From: Candidatus Nitrosotenuis sp.
Lineage (GTDB): Archaea > Thermoproteota > Nitrososphaeria > Nitrososphaerales > Nitrosopumilaceae
NCBI GenBank assembly: GCA_004322465.1
Contig: SCVO01000054.1
Span: forward strand, 1-47,400
DNA: 47,400 nt
Direction: 5' to 3'
Shown here: one piece after another, positions 13,253-18,516 of the stretch
Position numbering within the stretch: the stretch's first letter is position 1
Layout: the number at the start of each line of letters is the position of its first letter
Made by a program: the position numbers and the translations under genes
Notes under the pieces: model-generated
Told to the model about the DNA's origin: nothing
The model's input: only the letters and a program-made list of their open reading frames with translations
Databases searched by the model: none

Positions 13253-15922
13253 TCAGCCTGACGTACAGCCGCTATAGCCACACTCTATGCAGATGCTACA
13301 CCCCTCAACGAATACCAAGTTATTCTTGCATGTTGGACACAATCTTTCTTCTCTTACTTCCTCTATGATTGGCGTTTCCATCATTTGCTCATCAGGAATT
13401 TTCAGCTCCAGTGCCTTGTTGACCTGGTTTCTGACATATTGGTTCTTGATGCTCTTTTTGATGTATTCACGCAGGTGTGTGCTTGGCGATACGTCGAATG
13501 TTTTTTCTGCATTTTCGCTTGTCATGTGAAGTACCTGAGTGTGCCTTGAGCCATCTCTGTATACGGTGATTCCCTTTAGTCCAAGCTCGTGTGCAAGAAG
13601 ATATGCAGCCTTGACATCTTCTGCTGAGACGTCACTTGGCATGTTAATTGTCTTTGAGATTGCGTTTCCAATCCACTCTTGCCATGTTGCCTGCGCCATT
13701 AGGTGATCGGACCAGTGTATGTCCATTGCAGTGACAAAGATGTTCTGAATCCATTCTGGGATTTCTGCCAGACCGCGAACAGAACCATAGTTATCTGCTA
13801 TTTTTGCCAAGAGTTCGTCACTGTATAATCCGTTTTCTCGCAACACCTGTTCGAAGATCTTGTTGGTATAGAAGAATCGCCCAACGGTTACTCGTTTCTC
13901 AAATACAAGCGCAAACGTTGGCTCCATTCCGTTCGTACAGTCCGCAATCATGGAAAGCGTTCCCGTAGGCGCAACTGTAGTGGTAAGCACGTTTCGTATT
14001 CCGTGTTTTTGGATGTTTGTGATTAGTGCGTCCCAGTCGTAGTAATGCTCGCCCTTTTGCTTTTCATAATAGCCTGCTACTGGAATCTTGCCTTCAGGAT
14101 ACTCTGTTTTTGAGCACAGATCAAACTCGCCCCTTGATCTTGCAAGAGCAATACTTTCTTCCATGGAATAGTATGTTAGTGCCTCAGCAAGTTTTGATTG
14201 GAATTCATAGCCTTCCTTTGAGTTGTACGGGATTCTCAGCTTGTACAGAAGATCGGCTACTCCCATCACACCGAGTCCTATCCTTCTTGATTCTTTGGAT
14301 GCCTTGTCAATTTCCGGCACTGGATAGTGATTCATGTCTATTACGTTGTCAAGGAATCTTGTTGTCTTGCGAATTGTCTCCTCATATCTTTGCCAATCAA
14401 ATTCGAATTGGCCATCTGCCTTTCTTTTCACAAGATTTGCAAGATTAATTGATCCTAGGTTGCATGATTCGTATGGATAGAGACTTTGCTCTCCACATGG
14501 ATTTGTAGCTCTGAGTGGCATTCCTCTTGCCTTTGCAAACACGTTGTACTTGTTGATGTTGTCAAAGAAGATCAGTCCCGGCTCTGCACTCTTCCATGCG
14601 GAAAGTGCAATCAGGTCGATTAGCTGATGTGCGTTTATCTCGCGAATTGGCACTCTGTCCCTTGAGCTTCTCAGAGTGTACTTGCCATCCTTGCTGTCCA
14701 CCACTGCAGACCAAAAGTCTTCCCAGATTCCAACGCTGACATTAAAGTTCTCAAGTATTCCGGCTTCTGTTTTGTTTGTGATGAATTTTTCAATATCTGG
14801 ATGCCATACTTCGAGGATTCCCATGTTTGCGCCTCTTCTTTTGCCACCCTGTTTGACTACCTCAGTTACGGTGTTGATGATGTTCATAAAGGAGACTGGG
14901 CCAGATGCTACGCCTGATGTGGATGCAACAATATCTCCTTCGTGCCTTAGGTCAGAGTAGTTGATTCCAACGCCCCCTCCGGATTTGAATATGAGGGCTG
15001 CATCGGATGTTGACTTCATTATATCGCCCATGTCATCAGGCATGCCAAGCACAAAGCATGCAGATAGTTGTCCTAGACGTCCACCTGCATTCATCATGGT
15101 TGGCGAGTTTGGCAAAAACTCTTGCTCTGTCATTAGAGAATAGTATTCTTGTATTCTGTCTGCATAGTTGTCAAACTTTTTAGCTGCAAGCAAGGTGAGC
15201 ACTTCTTTGAAGCTCTTCTTCATTTGTCCTCTGCTTGCAAGATAGACATAGTGGTTAATGAGTCCCCTAAAGTGCCACTTGTTCAGATAATAGGTTCCAA
15301 TCTTGAACTTGTAATCAAAGTCATCAAGCTTTGCAAGATATTTTTTAGCTTCTTCTGTGTCTTGTGTTATGCCTCCTTCTCTTGAGAAGACCTCATTATC
15401 ATACATGATGTCTCCAAGTGCAACAAGGACTGCCACTCGCTCAAACATTTGGCCGGGGCTTTCAGTGATTTCGCTTTTGTTGTTTCTCATCAAATATCTG
15501 GATGCCAGAACACGCAGGCAGTTAAGATCGAATGTCTTTGAAACATTATCAAGTGATTTGGTGTTTAGAACTTTCATTTTGTCCTCTCTTACTTTTCTTC
15601 TCTCATGTCGGTACAAAATGTAGGACTTTGCGATTTCGCCGTAGCCCTTTTCAATTAAGGTAGATTCAACCATGTCTTGCACATCCTCGACTGATGGCGG
15701 ATGTGATGCCGAAAATCCTTGCTGTATTAGCTTGTTTAATACACCATTTGTAAGATCCTCCGCAATTTTACGGTCTGCCTTACCTGTTGCGACTAGTGCT
15801 TTATAGATCGCATTTGTAATTTTTTCTTTATTAAAGTTGGTTATTCGGCCATCTCTTTTCTTAACGTCAATGATCGAACTCTCTATTTGTGAAAAATCTG
15901 TTGTCATTTCTTCTCCCCTCAC
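13253..15922 (-). CDS. nrdJ: Adenosylcobalamin-dependent ribonucleotide reductase (class II); start may be Met at 15907
   Basis: N-terminal ATP-cone, LPNSPTMMNAG, ATNPCGEQSLYPYESCNLGSINL, APTGTLSMIADC, C-terminal CPTC...CIECGYSGCTSG. Confidence 0.95.
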   Translation of the reverse strand: MRGEEMTTDFSQIESSIIDVKKRDGRITNFNKEKITNAIYKALVATGKADRKIAEDLTNGVLNKLIQQGFSASHPPSVEDVQDMVESTLIEKGYGEIAKSYILYRHERRKVREDKMKVLNTKSLDNVSKTFDLNCLRVLASRYLMRNNKSEITESPGQMFERVAVLVALGDIMYDNEVFSREGGITQDTEEAKKYLAKLDDFDYKFKIGTYYLNKWHFRGLINHYVYLASRGQMKKSFKEVLTLLAAKKFDNYADRIQEYYSLMTEQEFLPNSPTMMNAGGRLGQLSACFVLGMPDDMGDIMKSTSDAALIFKSGGGVGINYSDLRHEGDIVASTSGVASGPVSFMNIINTVTEVVKQGGKRRGANMGILEVWHPDIEKFITNKTEAGILENFNVSVGIWEDFWSAVVDSKDGKYTLRSSRDRVPIREINAHQLIDLIALSAWKSAEPGLIFFDNINKYNVFAKARGMPLRATNPCGEQSLYPYESCNLGSINLANLVKRKADGQFEFDWQRYEETIRKTTRFLDNVIDMNHYPVPEIDKASKESRRIGLGVMGVADLLYKLRIPYNSKEGYEFQSKLAEALTYYSMEESIALARSRGEFDLCSKTEYPEGKIPVAGYYEKQKGEHYYDWDALITNIQKHGIRNVLTTTVAPTGTLSMIADCTNGMEPTFALVFEKRVTVGRFFYTNKIFEQVLRENGLYSDELLAKIADNYGSVRGLAEIPEWIQNIFVTAMDIHWSDHLMAQATWQEWIGNAISKTINMPSDVSAEDVKAAYLLAHELGLKGITVYRDGSRHTQVLHMTSENAEKTFDVSPSTHLREYIKKSIKNQYVRNQVNKALELKIPDEQMMETPIIEEVREERLCPTCKNNLVFVEGCSICIECGYSGCTSG

Positions 15923-16119
15923 TAGGTGATATTAAATTGAATATAACTGTGATTACCAAAAAATTCAGATTTTAGCTCAACAATGTTTACACCGTTACGA
16001 GAAATTTCACAATAGTCAGTCGTGGGCGTGAAAACGAAATCAGTTAATTTCATACAAGATCGTTTTGGCAACTAGGATTAGCTTTTATCTCACAAAGATA
16101 GGTCTTGCGGATTTCGGAT

Positions 16120-18222
16120 TCAGCTTACAATGTACGGAGACTTGCACAAAGGACACTTGTCAAAGAGTTTTTCGTCCTTGAATCCGCAGTTTCCGCAAAT
16201 TGGAACCTCTTTTAGAGGCCTAAACGAGCCTAGTAGATCGCCTGCCTTTTCTATTGACTTTTTGATCTCGTCCACTTTGGCGTCTTTTTCAAATTTGAGG
16301 CGTACAAGTAGCCCCCCGTTTAGGATTTTGGCTATCTTGTTGGCCTCAGCAATCTTGTCTGTTTTTACGCTCATGGAATCAAGCTCTGAGGCGGCAAGTA
16401 CCACTCCCTCTGAATAATTCTCCCCGTCAAGGGATCTGTTAACTGACATCTTGCCATATTTTTCGCCGTCCAGTGATCCAAATCTTGGAGTTCCGTCACT
16501 TTCAGTCATTGTGACTACGACTAGATCTCCCATTTCTTTGCCCTTCTTTTCTGCCACATCCACGGCAGTTTGGATGACTTTGTAGATTATTTCTTGGCCT
16601 TCTTTTTGATCGTTGTACCCAAGTATGTTGAATACAGCTTCGTGCAGCCCCACCAGATTCACAACCAGACATACGGAGCTTCTCTGCATGTATTGGGTGT
16701 TTGCTGCAAGCACGGGATTTAGTCCGCGTCTTGTAAGATCAGAAATGTCTTTCTTACGAAGGGACATTGCGGAAAGCGCAGGTTTCATCATTAGTGCAAG
16801 ACGTGCCCTGAAGTAAGTTTCGTCTTTGTTTGACTCAAATGCGAGTCTTGGCAGATTAATTGTAAGAGATTGTAAATTGATCGATGATGTGCTGTTTTTT
16901 GCTTTGACACGTATTATTCCGCTGTATGAGGTTTCATCTTTTGAGAATTGTACTTTGCCTCCAAGAGAAATTATTTCTGCGACGATATCTGAGACGTCTG
17001 CAACTTTGTTGTTCGCATAGTCAATTATGAGACCGATCTGCGGGACGGGGGTCATTTTGATATAATTTTTGTATGCCGAGAGAATCGTTTGTACAAGTTT
17101 TGGTTCTATGCCAAGCTGAATTCTAAAAGATACCAAAGTTGGCTCTCTTGTGTATTTGGAAGAAACAGACGAGGTTGCGAATGCGCCGACCAGTTTTTCC
17201 TCAAGTTCGGCGATGTTTTTTGCATGCTTTGAGCAAATTTGCACCAGACCATCCATGATAACCTCCCTTGATGCCTCCTTTGAAGCTAGGGATATCATCA
17301 TGGATAAAGACGACATGAGGTTGTCCAGCGTTTTGATAGTAGCAATTCTGGTGACTCCTAGGAATTTGCCCTTGAGGTCTATGCCATCCTCAATTAGTTC
17401 TTTCAAGTTAAAGAATATTGTATCTGGGAGTAACGACCAGATTCCTGGGTTTGATATGTGTATGTCGCCGGAAAGGTGGGAATCTGCAACGTCCTTTGGC
17501 AGCGTATTTAGGATTAGGTTTTCTGCAAATACTGTTTGCCCTGCTTTGAAGAACAGTCCCTGTGCGCCGTTATCGACGTTATCTACATTGGTTATCATTT
17601 CTTGCACATCAAAAACAGGCATTCCAAGCCTTGCAAGCTTGTTTCTGTATTCTTCATGGCCATGCTCAAGTAGCACAGAATTAACCATTTCACGGATCAG
17701 CGAACCCGTGAGATAGGTGGTTTGGTACTTGTAGATTCGATTTTCTACCTCTTCGGTGATTTTTTGTGCCAATTCCAGTGGAAGGCTTCCTTCTCGTACT
17801 AGCGACTGGATGATTTTATGCGAGTTGAATTCTTCGATTGAGTCGTGCGATGTTCTGACGTACATCTTGCCACTTTCTATAATGGAGCGCTCTTCAATTT
17901 GTCTTGCAAGACTTAGGACAAGTTTTCCTAGATTTGTTATGGTGTAACGTCTTTCAGATTTATTGAGCGCTACAAGCGACTGTCTTAGTAGTTTTCTTAG
18001 ATGGTAAGCAAATTTTCCGCTTTCCTTTTTTGATTTGAATCCTGCAAGTGATTTTAATTCTGAATATGTTAACGGTCCTTTTGAGTTTAAGATTCGTAAA
18101 ATGTCAATTCGGTTAGGACTTGCCATTACAGAGAAGATCATTCTTACGCGCTTTGACGTAGACTGTAAAATGCCGCCACCCTTCTTTGGATCCATTGCGC
18201 CGGTGGACAGCTCTATGCTCAT
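16120..18222 (-). CDS. HTH (ArsR-like) + ATP-cone + NrdD-like domain + C-terminal zinc ribbon protein; no glycyl-radical motif seen
   Basis: N-terminal wHTH (MASPNRIDILRILNSKGPLTYSELKSL); ATP-cone (EEFNSHKIIQSLVREGSLPLELAQKITEEVENRI); NrdD-like LTINLPRLAFES and CLVVNLVGLHEAV; ends CGNCGFKDEKLFDKCPLCKSPYIVS*. Confidence 0.85.
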   Translation of the reverse strand: MSIELSTGAMDPKKGGGILQSTSKRVRMIFSVMASPNRIDILRILNSKGPLTYSELKSLAGFKSKKESGKFAYHLRKLLRQSLVALNKSERRYTITNLGKLVLSLARQIEERSIIESGKMYVRTSHDSIEEFNSHKIIQSLVREGSLPLELAQKITEEVENRIYKYQTTYLTGSLIREMVNSVLLEHGHEEYRNKLARLGMPVFDVQEMITNVDNVDNGAQGLFFKAGQTVFAENLILNTLPKDVADSHLSGDIHISNPGIWSLLPDTIFFNLKELIEDGIDLKGKFLGVTRIATIKTLDNLMSSLSMMISLASKEASREVIMDGLVQICSKHAKNIAELEEKLVGAFATSSVSSKYTREPTLVSFRIQLGIEPKLVQTILSAYKNYIKMTPVPQIGLIIDYANNKVADVSDIVAEIISLGGKVQFSKDETSYSGIIRVKAKNSTSSINLQSLTINLPRLAFESNKDETYFRARLALMMKPALSAMSLRKKDISDLTRRGLNPVLAANTQYMQRSSVCLVVNLVGLHEAVFNILGYNDQKEGQEIIYKVIQTAVDVAEKKGKEMGDLVVVTMTESDGTPRFGSLDGEKYGKMSVNRSLDGENYSEGVVLAASELDSMSVKTDKIAEANKIAKILNGGLLVRLKFEKDAKVDEIKKSIEKAGDLLGSFRPLKEVPICGNCGFKDEKLFDKCPLCKSPYIVS

Positions 18223-18284
18223 GATTATGGCTAGAGATCGGGACTAAATAAGATTTATGACTAGATTCTCATCGAACTTTTTGA

Positions 18285-18446
18285 TCAGTTTTTCTGGACA
18301 TCCATGGAAAACTCTGATGTTGAAAGCGTCTGACCACATGAGGGACACTTGTTGTTGTAGTGCTTCATGACATCTTTGATCGATTTGAGCATCTTCATGT
18401 TAGAGATCTTGCTTCCACACTTACCACAGATAACATCGACTGACAA
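18285..18446 (-). CDS. Small zinc-ribbon protein, 53 aa (below the ORF-track cut-off; TTG start proposed)
   Basis: Own translation: MSVDVICGKCGSKISNMKMLKSIKDVMKHYNNKCPSCGQTLSTSEFSMDVQKN*, with CxxC...CxxC. Confidence 0.75.
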   Translation of the reverse strand: MSVDVICGKCGSKISNMKMLKSIKDVMKHYNNKCPSCGQTLSTSEFSMDVQKN

Positions 18447-18516
18447 TGAAAACTAAGTTTTTTTGAAACTATTAAGAATCCTTTTTGAAATTTGTTAATT
18501 ACTCGGTAAATTTGAT

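Follow-up and report, generated by a model that had tools for sequence, protein, structure and literature searches.

The locus

The 47,400 nucleotides of DNA analyzed here (the window) belong to a Nitrosotenuis-type archaeon whose closest named relatives are Candidatus Nitrosotenuis genomes with 96–98% identity. A gene coding for a protein which we call pseudo-NrdD is situated directly upstream of nrdJ, the gene of a class II ribonucleotide reductase (RNR), and on the same strand (Table 1). The earlier note on this DNA had described the protein as a winged helix–turn–helix (wHTH) followed by an ATP-cone and an NrdD-like body with a stop codon after the Zn ribbon, and this architecture was confirmed by the Pfam matches. 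Residues 29–103 match the wHTH models DUF7347 (41 bits, cut-off 27.6) and HTH_20 (32.6 bits, cut-off 27), residues 120–192 match the ATP-cone (34.3 bits, cut-off 25.8) and residues 418–695 match NRDD (87 bits, cut-off 26.2). The C-terminus reads CGNCGFKDEKLFDKCPLCKSPYIVS and then stops, seven residues beyond the last cysteine of the Zn ribbon. In the alignment the ATP-cone is of the type found in archaeal NrdDs, with VRTS instead of KRDG. The adjoining NrdJ (NrdJ_Z, 736 bits) has an ATP-cone of its own, which is of the KRDG type. Just upstream of the pseudo-NrdD gene, at about 18290–18460 (-), there is a short Zn-ribbon open reading frame (...CGKCGSKISNMKMLKSIKDVMKHYNNKCPSCGQTLSTSEFSMDVQKN) which is kept at this place in Nitrosopumilaceae.

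Table 1. Features of the pseudo-NrdD/nrdJ locus, with positions in the window
Feature	Position	Strand	Basis or remark
nrdJ, class II (B12-dependent) RNR with ATP-cone; presumed target	13253..15922	(-)	likely ATG 15907
TATA-box-like TTATAT of nrdJ	15941..15946	(-)	sequence only
GGTGTAAACATTGTTGAGC, partly palindromic block, conserved in Nitrosopumilaceae; candidate binding site	15975..15993	(-)	upstream of nrdJ TATA
CDS of wHTH/ATP-cone/pseudo-NrdD protein, 700 aa	16120..18222	(-)	ORF list, Pfam, genome comparison
C-terminal Zn ribbon, residues 671–700, then stop	16120..16212	(-)	glycyl-radical segment absent
NrdD-like body, residues 201–670	16213..17622	(-)	without active-site cysteines, without HxHD motif
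ATP-cone, residues 117–200	17623..17874	(-)	VRTS loop, archaeal NrdD-type, replaces KRDG
Winged HTH, residues 29–112	17887..18138	(-)	Pfam and identity over 51 Nitrosopumilaceae proteins
GTCATAAATCTTATTTA, conserved block in the promoter of the pseudo-NrdD gene, overlaps TATA-like stretch	18245..18261	(-)	

Loss of the catalytic residues

For a survey of the active site, 34 homologs (25 from other classes and 9 from Nitrososphaeria) were aligned with the NrdD of E. coli and six true archaeal NrdDs. We take C175 and C384 of E. coli NrdD to be the cysteines of the barrel and of the finger loop, respectively. In the Prevotella enzyme the corresponding roles have been assigned to Cys171, Cys416, Gly711 and the HxHD motif (PMC11226230). 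The alignment of the active-site Cys and Gly, a check proposed in the earlier note, gave a uniform picture: the barrel cysteine is replaced and the second His of HxHD is lost in all 34 homologs, the finger-loop cysteine is lost in 32 of them and the radical glycine is replaced or missing in 30, while all four zinc cysteines are kept throughout (34/34). The window protein carries Thr and Ile at the C175 and C384 positions. Four proteins from other classes (L135, L145, L204 and L206) still have Gly at the radical position; their C175 equivalent is gone.

The activating enzyme NrdG, which the earlier note had not seen, is also missing from the wider genome (92% complete), where a profile search gave a sole match of 35 bits against a cut-off of 126. 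This match is a QueE-like radical-SAM protein adjoining a folE-like gene and not an NrdG.

Profile comparisons with hhalign of true NrdDs with the Nitrososphaeria bodies (E=3.9e-32) and with the homologs of other classes (E=6e-106) make the descent of the pseudo-NrdD body from NrdD clear. As support only, since the AlphaFold model is of low confidence (pLDDT 52), its best 34 Foldseek matches are class III RNRs without exception. The NRDD profile match and these structural matches would also be expected of a working class III RNR, or of one broken by a frameshift or an assembly error. A working enzyme is, however, already contradicted by the loss of C175 and the decay of HxHD in every homolog, and the genome is without NrdG. 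Judged by its residues, pseudo-NrdD is catalytically dead.

Distribution, truncation and origin

A protein search found the gene in 235 of the 251 sampled genomes of the class Nitrososphaeria; the 16 genomes without it belong mostly to one family (f14). All complete copies read in this class end alike, after the Zn ribbon and without the glycyl tail. Downstream of the window gene, before nrdJ, the motif RVxGY occurs in none of the three frames, just as it is missing from the protein. Given the presence in 235/251 genomes and the same ending of the complete copies, the truncation is neither chance nor a sequencing error, and together with the motif-free downstream frames this rules out a frameshift or an assembly error. 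The absence of the glycyl motif noticed earlier is shared by these copies, and the restoring frameshift which the earlier note had envisaged was not found. We consider a class III RNR, working or accidentally broken, to be practically untenable.

At the level of the phylum, 268 of 401 genomes match in a profile search at E<=0.001, the weakest of these matches reaching only the HTH or a true NrdD. The homologs in other classes (740–790 aa), which are probably from Bathyarchaeia, span nearly the whole NRDD profile (E 1e-71 to 1e-77). They mostly retain the C-terminal tail with a decayed RVxGY motif, for example FSRSSATYIPLDLWPEAKRRD in L133 as compared with WWSRITGYYQAVSGWNEAKKKE in the true NrdD of L136. 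In the families f27, f32 and f47 the body is cut to 540–620 aa and the Zn ribbon is gone; the wHTH and mostly also the cone are retained.

In a tree of cones and bodies a single clade (100/100) comprises the Nitrososphaeria proteins, and a weak branch (68/88) has the true NrdDs to one side, a topology compatible with a single origin of pseudo-NrdD. Those pseudo-NrdDs that adjoin a true NrdD cluster with the other pseudo copies, so that the split from NrdD must be old and a recent tandem duplication as their source is unsupported.

Conservation of the domains

The domains of the protein are conserved to very different degrees. Compared with 51 Nitrosopumilaceae proteins the mean identity of the window protein is 99.9% for the wHTH, 93.7% for the cone and 64.6–69.5% for the body; the NrdJ encoded beside it has 78.8% identity in this family. 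In four more distant loci (L178, L179, L180 and L184 of families f3 and f5) identity remains at 93–98% for the wHTH and falls to 27–48% for the body. True NrdDs show the opposite pattern, with the body (54–66%) at or above the cone (51%). The third codon positions of the conserved region agree only to 50–60% in more distant loci and have therefore drifted, which means that the conservation acts at the protein level. We regard these identities as the strongest single argument that the function probably resides in DNA binding and in the cone, with the body serving as a scaffold.

The near-invariance of the wHTH suggests many targets rather than one. It could accordingly be argued that pseudo-NrdD is a broader regulator that reads the energy or nucleotide status via its ATP-cone and for which RNR would be one target among several, or in some lineages no target at all. 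A wHTH with 99.9% identity across the whole family, far above NrdJ, is indeed more typical of factors binding many sites.

Linkage to RNR genes

At 56 of 59 Nitrosopumilaceae loci the regulator gene immediately precedes nrdJ on the same strand, and the other three stop at contig edges. The arrangement recurs in the other families of the order (15 loci), L217 (a 565-aa copy) being the one exception. In family f15 both genes are convergent, and in the class families f13, f16 and f17 no nrdJ was seen within the 9–14 kb examined around the regulator. The NrdJ partners vary, being with or without an ATP-cone, in one case of bacterial type and in one case probably intein-bearing. The bacterial-type enzyme (PRK07562/PRK06556-like; L182:3310-6447) stands next to the regulator, suggesting that the enzyme was replaced by transfer and the regulator stayed. 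The NrdJ of 1149 aa in L186:2265-5711 has a break after ALIHKC, which suggests an intein.

In other classes the regulator is found just upstream of a true glycyl NrdD in six loci (L128, L136, L141, L146, L171 and L203) and upstream of a cone-less NrdJ in L134. As class and type of the partner differ among the linked loci, the regulator evidently stays with RNR while the type of RNR changes.

Outside Nitrososphaerales an RNR gene is missing from the surroundings of many loci, and several of these adjoin pyrB or a carbamoyltransferase gene, as would suit a broader regulator. Against such a role, the nrdJ linkage is kept in all sampled families of the order but for one locus, and the linkage to NrdD recurs in other classes. 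The carbamoyltransferase neighbors come in two arrangements. A gene of the aspartate/ornithine carbamoyltransferase family is convergent with pseudo-NrdD in L129:3483-4403, L131:7667-8674 and L133:3753-4679 (pyrB by NCBIfam in L129 and L133); in L207, L209 and L215 pseudo-NrdD has an ornithine carbamoyltransferase gene as its divergent neighbor.

The linkage could also mean that the pseudoenzyme acts on the RNR protein itself as inhibitor or allosteric partner and uses its wHTH for autoregulation only. Pairing with an active paralog is common among pseudoenzymes, and the six loci adjoining a true NrdD would fit this. In Nitrososphaerales, however, the partner is a NrdJ of very different types and not a close homolog, and with partners so varied heterodimers would be hard to keep. 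Moreover, the body is the least conserved part of pseudo-NrdD.

NrdR in the class

The bacterial RNR regulator NrdR is rare in archaea (PMC9110341). We found no match to its model (TIGR00244) in the window genome, and among 121 genomes of the class it exceeds the cut-off in one. This single instance (L218, G013:C15:1918-2352) is a full-length NrdR of 159 bits and is due to transfer or contamination. In family f20 NrdR is common and pseudo-NrdD is present as well. Thus the two are not strictly exclusive, and their coexistence again favors the idea of a broader regulator. Points against a dedicated nrdJ regulator include the many loci outside Nitrososphaerales without RNR nearby, the presence of NrdR in family f20 and the 16 of 251 genomes that lack the gene.

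Candidate DNA sites

Conservation of the nrdJ spacer in Nitrosopumilaceae is poor outside the TATA box, the ribosome-binding site and a block of the form GGTGTnAA-N5-TTGAnC. This block, the sole conserved non-promoter element there, precedes the TATA box by about 28 bp. A pattern search found one exact match in the window genome (15975-15993); the lack of a second one there argues against a broader regulator. In 61 genomes the pattern and a control pattern gave similar totals of matches, but at least 12 of the 37 matches listed for the block sit at the one place upstream of nrdJ. Taken by itself, the inverted repeat reaches only weak significance against dinucleotide shuffles at single loci (p about 0.2 in the window), and the case for the block therefore rests on its recurrence at this place. 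The nrdJ leader was also examined for riboswitches and other RNA families, and no Rfam match was significant.

Upstream of the regulator's own gene the nrdJ block was not found. A different, TATA-containing block, GTCAnAAATCTTAnTTA, is present there. Within 699 kb of related loci the core of this block, TCAnAAnTCTTA, is found 52 times, which equals the number of loci with the core upstream of the regulator, and the block is thus unique to this promoter. This would be in line with autoregulation and hence with a partner of the RNR protein, a role which we nevertheless consider quite improbable.

Neither the nrdJ block nor the block at the regulator promoter was found in Nitrososphaeraceae, though the wHTH is 93–98% identical, and for this reason neither can yet be called an operator. 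The conserved block upstream of nrdJ counts for the regulator reading and may not be the operator. Archaeal elements upstream of the TATA box are more usual for activators than for simple repressors. The earlier note had proposed a repressor; with the only conserved non-promoter element of the nrdJ spacer lying upstream of the TATA box, this sign is unsupported and the position is more activator-like.

Proposed function

The best explanation, to which we assign a probability of roughly two in three, is that pseudo-NrdD is a dead class III RNR that has become a transcription factor, which senses nucleotides and controls nrdJ in Nitrososphaeria, thereby doing the job that NrdR does in bacteria. 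This explanation is supported by the architecture, the loss of the residues for radical chemistry, the selection on wHTH and cone, the linkage to two classes of RNR, the near-absence of NrdR from the class and the absence of NrdG from the window genome. A broader regulator appears unlikely. We envisage that the N-terminal wHTH binds the nrdJ promoter and that the adjoining ATP-cone reads ATP/dATP, the dead NrdD fold and the Zn ribbon providing a scaffold for dimerization and signal relay. ATP-cones govern the oligomeric state in NrdR (PMC9110341) and in RNRs (PMC11226230), and in the same manner ATP or dATP at the cone would alter the oligomeric state of pseudo-NrdD and hence its binding to DNA. 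More tentatively, pseudo-NrdD might represent a phylum-wide family replacing NrdR, with the wHTH at RNR promoters, the cone reading ATP/dATP and a body whose former specificity or substrate site still binds dNTPs. A single protein would then sense both how much dNTP is present and how well the dNTPs are balanced.

The central proposal of the earlier note, a dead NrdD acting as a nucleotide-sensing DNA-binding protein beside nrdJ, is hence strongly supported by residue loss, conservation of wHTH and cone, linkage and the near-absence of NrdR, with DNA binding, sensing and nrdJ as target being what we infer from them. Its argument that a glycyl radical enzyme is unlikely in an aerobic organism is incomplete, as some lineages with pseudo-NrdD have kept a working glycyl-radical NrdD as its direct neighbor.

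The control of RNR transcription in archaea is largely open. If our reading is true, a very abundant archaeal group, the ammonia-oxidizing archaea, has a dedicated sensor in a lineage almost entirely without the bacterial switch NrdR, and pseudo-NrdD would clearly exemplify the conversion of an enzyme to a transcription factor of its own pathway. Promoter binding and the response to ATP/dATP are directly testable predictions. In open-access PMC text we found no published description of the wHTH/ATP-cone/pseudo-NrdD architecture.

Comparison with known systems

Pseudo-NrdD resembles NrdR in that a DNA-binding domain and an ATP-cone are combined in a protein adjoining or acting on RNR genes, and reading of ATP/dATP is expected in it as well (TIGR00244; PMC9110341, PMC12176259). 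NrdR, however, has about 150 aa and binds DNA via an N-terminal Zn ribbon, whereas pseudo-NrdD has a wHTH predicted to bind DNA, a cone of archaeal NrdD type, a dead body of 500 aa and a C-terminal Zn ribbon. The NrdR model TIGR00244, which comprises the N-terminal Zn ribbon and the ATP-cone, does not match the window protein. Pseudo-NrdD is therefore NrdR-like in its proposed role yet not an NrdR; it is derived from NrdD and fails the defining features of an active NrdD. With class III NrdD (PF13597, TIGR02487) it shares a homologous ATP-cone, barrel-type body and C-terminal Zn ribbon, but it lacks the catalytic cysteine pair, HxHD, the radical glycine with its tail and NrdG, and has gained a wHTH. 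The window protein scores 77 bits against the NrdD equivalog with a cut-off of 326, and to name pseudo-NrdDs anaerobic ribonucleoside-triphosphate reductases from a PF13597 match would be wrong.

The winged HTH is of the same broad type as in archaeal ArsR-like regulators (HTH_20/DUF7347), in pseudo-NrdD fused to an RNR-derived sensor. An assignment as ArsR/SmtB metalloregulator was rejected (NF033788, 26 bits against a cut-off of 55); the protein exceeds the cut-offs of the general wHTH models. PutA, BirA and NadR are enzyme-derived or bifunctional factors in which the fold of a metabolic enzyme from the pathway is joined to a DNA-binding domain, and they retain catalytic activity. Pseudo-NrdD, in contrast, contains a dead enzyme, and it is probably the ATP-cone that reads the signal.
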